Assembly (NCBI RefSeq): GCF_000215995.1
Contig: NC_015680.1
Coordinates: 1,116,001 to 1,180,000, forward strand
Direction of reading: 5' to 3'
Length of the DNA stretch: 64,000 nt
From: Pyrococcus yayanosii CH1
Lineage (GTDB): Archaea > Methanobacteriota_B > Thermococci > Thermococcales > Thermococcaceae
Both the position numbers and the translations under genes were made by a program. This document shows positions 29,838 to 33,421 of this stretch, piece after piece. Every line of letters begins with the position of its first letter. Position 1 is the first letter of the stretch. Below the pieces are notes generated by a model that saw only the letters and a program-made list of their open reading frames with translations, made no database searches and was not told the origin of the DNA.

Positions 29838-31058
29838 ATGATACTCCAGGTTGCCCTGGATCTAACGGACATAGAGCAAGCCATTTCTATCGCAGAGAAG
29901 GCCGCTCGCGGTGGCGCTCACTGGCTCGAGGTTGGAACGCCTCTTATTAAGAAAGAGGGAATGCGTGCGGTAGAGCTCATGAAGCGCCGCTTTCCCGACA
30001 GAAAGATCGTGGCCGACCTCAAGACGATGGACACAGGAGCCCTTGAAGTAGAGATGGCCGCCCGCCATGGCGCTGATGTAGTTTCCATCCTTGGCGTCGC
30101 CGACAACAAGACGATAAAGGACGCCCTCGCCGTTGCCAGGAAGTACGGCGTTAAGGTAATGGTTGACCTCATTGGTGTCAAGGACAAGGTCAAGAGGGCC
30201 AAGGAGCTTGAGAAGATGGGCGTCCACTACATACTCGTCCATACGGGTATAGACGAGCAGGCTCAAGGGAAGAGCCCCCTCGAAGACCTCGAAAAGGTCG
30301 TCAAGGCCGTAAAGGTTCCAGTTGCAGTTGCGGGCGGGCTGAACCTTGAGACGATTCCGAAGGTCATAGAGCTCGGAGCAACCATAGTCGTCGTTGGGAG
30401 TGCCATAACGAAGGCCAAGGATCCGGAGGAAGTCACCAGGAAGATTATTGACCTCTTCTGGGGCGAGTACATGAAAACGATAAGGAAGGCCATGCATGAC
30501 ATCACGGAGCATATCGATGAGGTGGCTGAAAAGCTCAAGCTCGATGAAGTCCGGGGAATGATTGACGCCATGATAGGGGCCAACAAGATATTCATCTACG
30601 GTGCCGGGAGGAGTGGTCTCGTTGGAAAGGCCTTTGCCATGAGGCTCATGCACCTCGACTTCAACGTCTACGTGGTAGGCGAGACGATAACACCGGCCTT
30701 CGAACCCGGGGACTTGCTCATAGCCATCAGCGGTTCGGGCGAGACCAAGACGATAGTTGACGCGGCCGAGATAGCGAAACAACAGGGTGGAAAGGTCGTG
30801 GCCATAACATCCTATAAGGACTCGACCCTTGGCCGTCTGGCCGACGTCGTCGTTGAGATACCGGGTAGAACAAAGACAGATGTCCCCACCGACTACATAG
30901 CGAGGCAGATGCTGACCCAGTACAAGTGGACGGCTCCTATGGGAACACTCTTCGAGGACTCAACGATGGTATTTCTCGACGGTGTCATAGCGCTCCTCAT
31001 GGCTACCTTCCAGAAGACCGAAAAGGACATGAAAAGGAAGCACGCAACGCTTGAGTGA
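29838..31058 (+). CDS. hps-phi: Bifunctional hexulose-6-phosphate synthase/isomerase
   Basis: The 406-residue fusion joins hexulose-6-phosphate synthase (about 1-210) with 6-phospho-3-hexuloisomerase (about 220-406). The first part is an OMP-decarboxylase-like barrel: LQVALDL, IVADLKTMD, VAVAGGLNLETI, IVVVGSAIT. The second is a SIS domain: YGAGRSGLVGKAFAMRL, ISGSGETK. In Thermococcales the pair runs in reverse to make ribulose 5-phosphate and formaldehyde from fructose 6-phosphate, replacing the pentose pathway. The fused form is known from Pyrococcus. Confidence 0.96.
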   Translation: MILQVALDLTDIEQAISIAEKAARGGAHWLEVGTPLIKKEGMRAVELMKRRFPDRKIVADLKTMDTGALEVEMAARHGADVVSILGVADNKTIKDALAVARKYGVKVMVDLIGVKDKVKRAKELEKMGVHYILVHTGIDEQAQGKSPLEDLEKVVKAVKVPVAVAGGLNLETIPKVIELGATIVVVGSAITKAKDPEEVTRKIIDLFWGEYMKTIRKAMHDITEHIDEVAEKLKLDEVRGMIDAMIGANKIFIYGAGRSGLVGKAFAMRLMHLDFNVYVVGETITPAFEPGDLLIAISGSGETKTIVDAAEIAKQQGGKVVAITSYKDSTLGRLADVVVEIPGRTKTDVPTDYIARQMLTQYKWTAPMGTLFEDSTMVFLDGVIALLMATFQKTEKDMKRKHATLE

Positions 31059-31063
31059 TCCCC

Positions 31064-31810
31064 ATGCCTCCCAACCCCATTTTTGTGGGCATAGGGGGAG
31101 CTGGAATAAGAGTGGTCTGGGGAATCAGGGGGCCCTTCCGCAAGCTTTCCATAGATACCTCCGGCTACATCTTCAACAGGAGGATACTCATCGAGAAGAT
31201 AAGAGAGGTCTTCGGAACCCTAGAGAAGGGAAGCCACCTCTGGCTAATCTTTGAGGACAAGGAGATAAACATTGAGATAGTGGAGCACATCATTGACAGC
31301 ACTCCTTCAGACGTCATCAGACTAGCTTACATCCTGAGCCCGGGGAAGGAGCTCGTTTTTGAGGAAAAACCTCCGTGGGCTCTAAATTTCGAGACCGTTT
31401 TTTATGACTCCCTCTGGGAGTACCTGAGTGGGAAGGAGAAAAAGCCCCTCTGGCAGGCCTACAACGAGGCCGCAATTTCATTAGGCGACATGTTCACCAA
31501 GCTCTACGGTTACCTCGCAGGCAACATGCTCGTGAACGTGGACTACGCCGACTTCTTGGAGATGGTTAGGGGGGGCAACGTAGGAATACTCCGGCTCCTC
31601 CAGAGGGTTGACTTCGAGTGGCACTGGGGAGTCTGGGAGAGAGGCCTCATAAACATCATGGCCGGGAGGGGGGTTCCTCTCAGGGACGTTCACGAAATCC
31701 TCAGGAGGTTCCAGGAGATTCTCAAGGAGAAGGACATAATCTGGGGAGTCAGAACGGACGATGGCTTCAAAGGACTCGAGATCCTCGCCCTCCTGGTGAG
31801 GAAATGGTGA
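31064..31810 (+). CDS. FtsZ/tubulin-like protein without the GTP signature motif
   Basis: The 248-residue protein begins FVGIGGAGIRVVWGI, matching the GVGGAGxN start of FtsZ, then SIDTSG where FtsZ has the (A/I)NTD strand end. Further on, residues about 130-175 (LWQAYNEAAISLGDMFTKLY, then LVNVDYADFLEMVRGG) follow FtsZ's NEAF-x-A-D ... GLVNLDFADV-x-x-VM-x-GG well, and GLINIMAGRGVPLRDVHEI resembles the C-domain ALVNITGG strand. The GGGTG(S/T)G loop is absent; the middle is shortened. I infer a tubulin-superfamily relative unlikely to hydrolyse GTP normally. It follows HPS-PHI by 5 bases and overlaps a HAD gene. Confidence 0.55.
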   Translation: MPPNPIFVGIGGAGIRVVWGIRGPFRKLSIDTSGYIFNRRILIEKIREVFGTLEKGSHLWLIFEDKEINIEIVEHIIDSTPSDVIRLAYILSPGKELVFEEKPPWALNFETVFYDSLWEYLSGKEKKPLWQAYNEAAISLGDMFTKLYGYLAGNMLVNVDYADFLEMVRGGNVGILRLLQRVDFEWHWGVWERGLINIMAGRGVPLRDVHEILRRFQEILKEKDIIWGVRTDDGFKGLEILALLVRKW

Positions 31811-32448
31811 GGGTTATACTCTTCGACATAGACGGAACGCTCCTCTCCGAGCGACCGCTCGTAATGCTGTTCCTCCCCCAGGTTTACGCCGAAATAGCCA
31901 GGCGTATGGGCGTGAGCAGAGGAGAGGCTAGGAGGATTTTTCTCCGCGAGGTGGAGAGGAGGCATGGAACCTACGAGTGGCACGACTGGAACTTCTTCTT
32001 CAAGCTCTTCGGACTTTCCCTCCGCTTCGAGGAGCTCCTGAAAAAGTATCCCCACAAAATTGAGGTCTTTCCCGGCGTGCAGGAGACTCTCAAGCAGCTC
32101 TCCAAAGAGTACAAGCTCGGCATCGTGACGAGCGGTCCGGAATATCAGAGGCTAAAGTTGAGGCTGGCTGGCCTCTTAGAATTCTTCGACGCTGTGGTAA
32201 CCCGGGACGATGCTCATGCCATCAAGCCTGAGCCAAGGATATTTCTGACGGCGCTTAAGGCCCTTAATGCAAAGCCGGAGGAAACAGTAATGGTTGGTGA
32301 TAGCCTCGAGCAGGACATATTGGGGGCAAAGGCTCTTGGAATGAGGGCCGTTTGGGTTAACAGAGAGGGGGAAAAAGGTTATAACCTGCCCGATGCAGAG
32401 ATAAAAACGTTCTCGGAGCTCCCGAAAGTGTTGGGGTGGTTGCAATGA
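31804..32448 (+). CDS. HAD-superfamily hydrolase
   Basis: The 214-residue protein has all HAD motifs: ILFDIDGTLL (nucleophile Asp), VTSGPEY (motif II), IKPEPRIF (Lys), and VMVGDSLEQDILGAKALG (motif IV). A helical cap lies between residues 20 and 85, as in type I phosphatases acting on small phosphate esters. It overlaps its neighbours on both sides, so it is part of the 31-33 kb operon. The substrate is unknown. Confidence 0.88.
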   Translation: MVRVILFDIDGTLLSERPLVMLFLPQVYAEIARRMGVSRGEARRIFLREVERRHGTYEWHDWNFFFKLFGLSLRFEELLKKYPHKIEVFPGVQETLKQLSKEYKLGIVTSGPEYQRLKLRLAGLLEFFDAVVTRDDAHAIKPEPRIFLTALKALNAKPEETVMVGDSLEQDILGAKALGMRAVWVNREGEKGYNLPDAEIKTFSELPKVLGWLQ

Positions 32449-32627
32449 GGAAAGTGTTCGAGAAGGAGGGGATTTTTATCGAGTACACCGAGAATGTTGT
32501 GAAGACCGCCAGGAATGACGAGATAATCCACCGGTCGGAGAGCCCCACGAGACTCTGGTGGGAGTTGAAGGAGGCGATAAAGGGTAAGAGGGTGAAGATA
32601 ATAGTTTACGAGGTTGATGAGGAGTGA
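32445..32627 (+). CDS. Conserved small protein of unknown function
   Basis: This 60-residue protein has a KEGIFIEYTENVVKTARNDE stretch followed by SPTRLWWELKEAIKGKRVKI and a strand. It starts at ATG overlapping the HAD stop (ATGA) and ends overlapping the next gene (GTGA), so it is certainly translated in series. I know of no function. Confidence 0.65.
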   Translation: MRKVFEKEGIFIEYTENVVKTARNDEIIHRSESPTRLWWELKEAIKGKRVKIIVYEVDEE

Positions 32628-33421
32628 TTGCCCACCTGATAGCGACGGACGTTGGCGGCAGAGGTATCGGAAGGATATATCCCGAATACAGGGTTAGGGA
32701 AGGGGACTATCTAGAAAGGGCTGCTCAGCTCGTGCTCAAAAACCTAAAACGGATTCTCATAGTGGCAGACTTCCCAATACCTCCCACCATGCTCCCTGAG
32801 ACGGATGGACCACCGGGGGCTCTCGCTCTTGCCTTCGCCATCGAGGAGCTGGGTGGCAGGGCAGACATCCTGACGGGTGAGAGAACGGCAAAGGCTATTT
32901 CCCGCTTCTACGAGCACGTCAAGACTGAGCTCCCAAATCCCTCCCGCTACTCCCTCCTTATAAGCGTCGAAACTCCCGGGAGGGCTAGGGATGGAAGGTA
33001 CTATTCAATGTCGGGCCTTGAGATAAAAGTTCGGCCCTACGATGGCCTATTCATCGAGGCCCGCAGGCTGGGAATACCTACAATTGGGGTTGGAGACGGT
33101 GGGAACGAGATAGGGATGGGTAAGATAAGGGGCCTCATAGACGACCGCTTCGCTTCCGTCGTAGAGACGAAAGAGCTCATAATAGCGGGCGTTTCCAACT
33201 GGGGAGCCTACGGACTTGTGGGCCAGCTCTCCCTCATGGAAGGCAGGGGCCTTCTCGGGGACTTCAACGAGGAGATAATTCTTAAGGCCCTTGTGGAGGA
33301 GGGACTTATAGACGGCATCCTGAAGAGGCCCGCCCTCAGCGTGGACGGCCTTTCCCTTGAGCTCCATACTCGGTTTCTTGGCCTACTCCAGGCTATCGTG
33401 AAGGCTAAGCTTTCCCTCTGA
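32624..33421 (+). CDS. DUF4392/D-glutamate cyclase-like domain protein
   Basis: The 265-residue protein resembles the archaeal and mitochondrial D-glutamate cyclase-like C-terminal domain (DUF4392). Motifs include ATDVGGRGIGRIYPEY, ILIVADFPIPPTMLPETDGP, the ETPGRARDGRYYSM segment, and GVGDGGNEIGMGKI. The substrate is not known in archaea. It starts at GTG in a GTGA overlap and its end overlaps the opposing HD gene by 17 bases. Confidence 0.75.
   Translation: MIAHLIATDVGGRGIGRIYPEYRVREGDYLERAAQLVLKNLKRILIVADFPIPPTMLPETDGPPGALALAFAIEELGGRADILTGERTAKAISRFYEHVKTELPNPSRYSLLISVETPGRARDGRYYSMSGLEIKVRPYDGLFIEARRLGIPTIGVGDGGNEIGMGKIRGLIDDRFASVVETKELIIAGVSNWGAYGLVGQLSLMEGRGLLGDFNEEIILKALVEEGLIDGILKRPALSVDGLSLELHTRFLGLLQAIVKAKLSL

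Follow-up and report, generated by a model that had tools for sequence, protein, structure and literature searches.

A conserved FtsZ relative lacking a GTP site in Pyrococcus yayanosii and other Thermococcaceae

The locus and its conservation

The genome of Pyrococcus yayanosii CH1, a single contig of 1,716,818 bases, encodes a 248-amino-acid protein between the genes for a bifunctional HPS-PHI protein and a HAD-type hydrolase. All positions given here refer to the window, that is, the whole stretch of 64,000 nucleotides that was analysed. The original prediction had placed an open reading frame here and quoted several motifs from its translation; the frame and every one of these motifs are present in the sequence, namely GIGGAG (residues 9–14), IDTSG (30–34), LVNVDYADFLEMVRGG (156–171) and LINIMAGRGVPLRDVHEI (195–212). 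Among the aligned members of the protein family, IDTSG occurs in the P. yayanosii copy only, and INPxxY is the commoner form. The features of the locus, all on the forward strand, are as follows:

29838–31058, + strand: upstream neighbour, bifunctional HPS-PHI; 5-nt gap to the 248-amino-acid gene; conserved context
31064–31810, + strand: gene for the 248-amino-acid FtsZ relative without a GTP site; open reading frame, family found in 89 of 94 genomes, FtsZ homology and predicted fold
31088–31105, + strand: T1-like GIGGAG, residues 9–14; Gly 9 and Gly 11 invariant, the Asn that follows in FtsZ lost
31253–31273, + strand: T4 site, residues 64–70; EDKEINI in place of GGGTGTG; N69 invariant
31448–31519, + strand: central helix H7, residues 129–152, from model and alignment; guanine-contacting Asp replaced
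31535–31552, + strand: T7 catalytic motif NVDYAD, residues 158–163; N158, D160, A162 and D163 invariant
31604–31639, + strand: short linker that replaces helix H9, residues 181–192, from model and alignment
31640–31807, + strand: S8-H10-S9-S10 of the FtsZ C-terminal domain, without the FtsZ tail
31804–32448, + strand: downstream neighbour, HAD-type hydrolase (TIGR02253); 7-nt overlap with the 248-amino-acid gene; conserved context

A whole-genome search recovered the family in 89 of 94 Thermococcaceae genomes, almost always as a single copy, and in 72 of the 74 genomes of good quality (at least 90% complete, no more than 5% contamination). Full-length members are 48–64% identical to the P. yayanosii copy, and the ratio of non-synonymous to synonymous substitution (dN/dS) lies between 0.02 and 0.14 in most of the closest pairs (median of 0.14 over 70 pairs). 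HPS-PHI is found upstream at all 25 loci for which the contig reaches that far, with an inserted gene in one, and the HAD gene is found downstream at all 26 loci that were compared. Because the family is so widespread, its dN/dS is low and its gene order is conserved, the open reading frame is a real, conserved gene, and an artefact or a pseudogene can be dismissed. The short gap, the overlap and the conserved order also fit the predicted co-transcription with HPS-PHI and HAD.

A separate scan of GTDB genomes returned only records of the Thermococcales type and one ordinary Prevotellaceae FtsZ, and thus no spread of the family beyond Thermococcales was found in that scan. One Thermococcaceae genome (G069) has an intact copy and a second copy that is broken by a stop codon. 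The HAD gene is followed in nearly all of the compared loci by a gene for a 63-amino-acid protein (32436–32627; 50–69% identical), which has no Pfam or NCBIfam match, and the same string of genes includes a match to the D-glutamate cyclase C-terminal domain (32624–33421; PF14336, 2e-61). The locus tag PF0219 belongs to the upstream PTPS gene.

Relationship to FtsZ

The original prediction assigned the protein to the tubulin/FtsZ superfamily, and both profile comparison and structure prediction bear this out. As a single sequence, the P. yayanosii protein matches FtsZ_C only weakly (E = 0.063), but a match to it is seen in 25 of 33 family members (best E = 4.7e-4). The family profile matches Methanocaldococcus jannaschii FtsZ among PDB chains in three colinear blocks (E = 2.3e-7), and its alignment by hhalign with the FtsZ1 and FtsZ2 proteins of the same class reaches a probability of 97.0% over 229 colinear columns (E = 8.2e-11), compared with no more than 0.8% for 20 column-shuffled control profiles and 2.1% for the family against the CetZ pair. 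On the last value an origin from CetZ was rejected. The C-terminal domain gives the strongest signal and the N-terminal domain aligns too, so similarity confined to a short Rossmann segment is excluded. The AlphaFold model (pLDDT of 85.2, pTM of 0.86) has the FtsZ fold, and not an unrelated one, with the FtsZ order of elements and H7 at residues 129–152; its best 50 matches among PDB structures are all FtsZ (E values from 1.3e-12 to 1.8e-10). Viral structures match less well, the best (6.8e-8) being a phage FtsZ, and a viral origin was rejected.

The protein falls below curated thresholds (PF12327, best score of 14 bits against a cut-off of 27; TIGR00065, 11.4 against 295), and PF00091 gave no match at the gene in a genome scan. 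Since the family lies below every curated cut-off, it has probably been overlooked in organisms that are intensively studied. No description of it was found in the open-access literature, a scope outside which preprints and subscription papers fall, and it is probably undescribed.

Besides this gene, the P. yayanosii genome encodes FtsZ1, FtsZ2, CetZ and SepF. FtsZ2 is the next match of the family profile in this genome (4.0e-9) and is, by profile score, a closer relative of the 248-amino-acid protein than is FtsZ1. In the SepF survey, in which FtsZ1 and FtsZ2 are described, an archaeal GID motif is said to bind SepF; the C termini of P. yayanosii FtsZ1 (L102; KLDLAEL) and FtsZ2 (L103; IFADFYEL) do not have this motif, and SepF is present.

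FtsZ proteins from two other taxonomic families of the same class are relevant to the origin of the protein. In the sister family f3, a second FtsZ (L031–L034 and L114–L117) has lost all GTP motifs and kept T7; it is plainly homologous to FtsZ (1.9e-28 against PDB chains). In family f4, a third FtsZ (L108 and L109) retains intact GTPase motifs and lacks a recognisable tail, L108 stopping directly after the core. Maximum-likelihood trees group the f3 protein with the 248-amino-acid family, on long branches, with support of 97.6/99 for 242 columns and 89.4/64 for 120 C-terminal columns, and in both trees this group adjoins the third FtsZ of f4. When either long branch is dropped from simpler trees, the other still falls beside the f4 protein, with modest support. 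Because the placement near the f4 protein holds whether or not a long branch is removed, it is likely that a third lineage of FtsZ lost its GTP site once, early on; long-branch attraction is the alternative explanation for the grouping. In a best-hit orthology test FtsZ1 slightly outscored the f3 protein in f3 genomes, and no operon shared by the 248-amino-acid gene and the f3 gene was found.

Lost and retained elements

Alignment with FtsZ1 and FtsZ2 of the same class shows which elements have been lost. GIGxxG of T1 is partly retained and its Asn has gone; the Asp of T2 is missing; both H2 and T3 have been deleted; in T4, GGGTGTG has become a sequence similar to EDKxxN; and T5 and T6 are replaced. 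In AFxxAD of H7, the guanine-contacting Asp is Ala, Ser, Thr or Gly in all members compared. The original prediction, which held that the GTP-binding loop was missing and the region around it shortened, is thus confirmed for the family as a whole, in which the loop is absent or replaced in every member compared; indeed, none of the GTP-contacting loops T2, T3, T4, T5 and T6 of FtsZ is intact in any of these members. The losses extend beyond those first noticed: helix H9 is deleted, and the protein ends after S10 without a C-terminal tail. On the basis of the alignments and the model, the protein is a GTP-site-dead variant of FtsZ, degenerate and tail-less.

Other elements are retained, including H7, S8, H10 and S9 with I/VIWG, and T7 (NxDxxD) is invariant in 33 of 33 aligned members. 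Conservation is 0.86 in T7 compared with a mean of 0.65, and the values of 0.94, 0.85 and 0.81 for S6, S7 and S10 argue that the rest of the protein is not simply decaying. The old GTP pocket has acquired new invariant residues (N69, P93, E96, P103, W105, D115 and S116). Invariant residues in the S6, T5 and T4 regions suggest an added function at the top face, and those surrounding the former pocket suggest that a ligand or partner has been gained; from the gene order, it is conceivable that such a ligand is a sugar phosphate.

Archaeal operon neighbours are often functionally unrelated, which weighs against a stronger version of this idea, in which the pocket would serve as a metabolite sensor, binding a different ligand (such as a sugar phosphate of HPS-PHI or HAD) that controls the action of the protein either on FtsZ or on those enzymes. 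The new invariant residues, the very high conservation of S6 and the conserved order with HPS-PHI and HAD speak for a sensor. However, no known ligand-binding motif was recognised in Pfam or NCBIfam, and the invariant T7 would go unexplained unless FtsZ were also a target; we consider a sensor unlikely.

It is similarly improbable, in our estimation, that the protein is a structural relic with a new role independent of FtsZ, as a scaffold or a partner of an enzyme, in which T7 is kept for folding between H7 and H8 and not for catalysis. The metabolic gene neighbourhood and the many invariant Trp and Tyr residues that are specific to the family are consistent with a relic, but neither this family nor the f3 protein shows any change at the three catalytic positions of T7, although the rest of the f3 sequence differs widely. 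In beta-tubulin, moreover, the catalytic T7 residue has been replaced where hydrolysis is no longer served; that the 248-amino-acid family keeps it so strictly speaks for catalysis on a neighbouring subunit.

A putative trans-acting activator and its known counterparts

The active site of FtsZ is a composite, in which the T7 Asn and two Asp of the top subunit act on the GTP of the subunit below, and T2, T3, T4 and H2 contact the T7 loop of the neighbour (PMC8936486). A subunit whose T7 is perfect but whose GTP site is lost could perform only the first half of this exchange, and we therefore propose that the 248-amino-acid protein docks through its T7 face on FtsZ1 or FtsZ2, stimulates their GTPase in trans and caps the filament. 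We give this reading, inferred from sequence and model, a probability of roughly one half. The original prediction had already raised the possibility that FtsZ filaments are capped or modulated; the invariance of the trans-acting T7 loop is a specific argument that it did not include. The T7 face would dock where FtsZ1 or FtsZ2 bears its GTP, the catalytic Asp residues would drive hydrolysis of the GTP of the docked subunit, and the altered top face would accept no further FtsZ and so would terminate the filament there; filaments would be shortened or turned over as a result. Lacking a tail to bind SepF, the membrane anchor, the protein would work from the cytoplasm. By a tentative assignment of polarity, the growing end of FtsZ filaments exposes T7 (PMC8936486), which would place the cap at the opposite end, where nucleotide is exposed, and would favour turnover there. 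A ligand or partner could be added at the remodelled old pocket.

The presence of both potential partners in the same genome and the parallel pattern of loss and retention in the f3 relative support an activator and cap. Against it, the gene adjoins genes of sugar metabolism and not of division, and the S6, T5 and T4 regions of the top face hold invariant residues of their own. Moreover, H9 is part of the C-terminal domain, so its absence may mean that the bottom face does not wholly match that of FtsZ. The retention of T7, H10 and S9, which are elements of the longitudinal face, might instead point to nucleotide-independent filaments of the protein itself or to a scaffold built along FtsZ filaments; however, the top face that should receive the next T7 is without T2, T3, T4 and H2, which make this contact in FtsZ (PMC8936486), and we regard such a polymer as very unlikely. 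A broader version of the activator and cap is a speculative extension to which we give little weight: an ancient third FtsZ lineage would have become a dedicated regulator in trans that keeps only the catalytic face, docks on the nucleotide face of FtsZ1 or FtsZ2, fires their GTPase and caps the filament there, while a new ligand in the former GTP pocket, perhaps a sugar phosphate, gates it and thereby couples sugar metabolism to division.

A near-universal, conserved FtsZ that has no known GTP-binding motifs and keeps the trans-catalytic loop would mean that the halves of the FtsZ active site have been separated in nature. To our knowledge, FtsZ relatives are generally treated as polymerising GTPases, and we know of few negative regulators of archaeal division, for which the protein is a candidate. 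It may also provide a heat-stable tool for asking which filament end governs turnover.

Archaeal FtsZ1 and FtsZ2 (PF00091 and PF12327; TIGR00065) have in common with the family the fold, the order of elements, H7, NxDxxD of T7 and S8-H10-S9 with IIWG; they differ in having the GTP motifs of T2–T6, the H7 Asp, H9 and the tail, and in their length (about 370–415 amino acids compared with 248). The f3 FtsZ is similar in its lost GTP motifs, its retained T7 and its lack of a tail, but it has full FtsZ length, H9 and an FtsZ_C match well above the cut-off, and its gene lies beside those for an RdgB-like protein and ribosomal protein S15 instead of HPS-PHI and HAD. Among proteins that might work in a comparable way, chloroplast ARC3 carries an FtsZ-like part, and MciZ is a small peptide that is no relative of FtsZ. 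ARC3 binds FtsZ1 and FtsZ2 and, as a negative regulator, inhibits their assembly (PMC5471200). It is, however, a large eukaryotic chimera with MORN repeats. MciZ caps FtsZ filaments (PMC8936486). It binds the bottom face of FtsZ, whereas the 248-amino-acid protein would bind the nucleotide face. CetZ, another superfamily member, occurs in the same genomes as the family, one in each Thermococcales genome, and a survey also reported that two strains carry a divergent member of the superfamily (PMC9856176). Unlike the family, CetZ keeps GGGTGAG and matches PF00091, and the profiles of the two show no similarity beyond the fold. Finally, FtsZl1 is likewise a divergent family of the superfamily that occurs alongside conventional FtsZ; it keeps a nucleotide core with T1 and T4, and its T6-H7 region and C-terminal domain were unrecognised (Makarova and Koonin 2010, PMC2875224). 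A retained core with T1 and T4 would be expected of a member of FtsZl1 or FtsZl2, and T4 is absent from the 248-amino-acid family, which, by the description of FtsZl1, is set apart as the reverse of that pattern.
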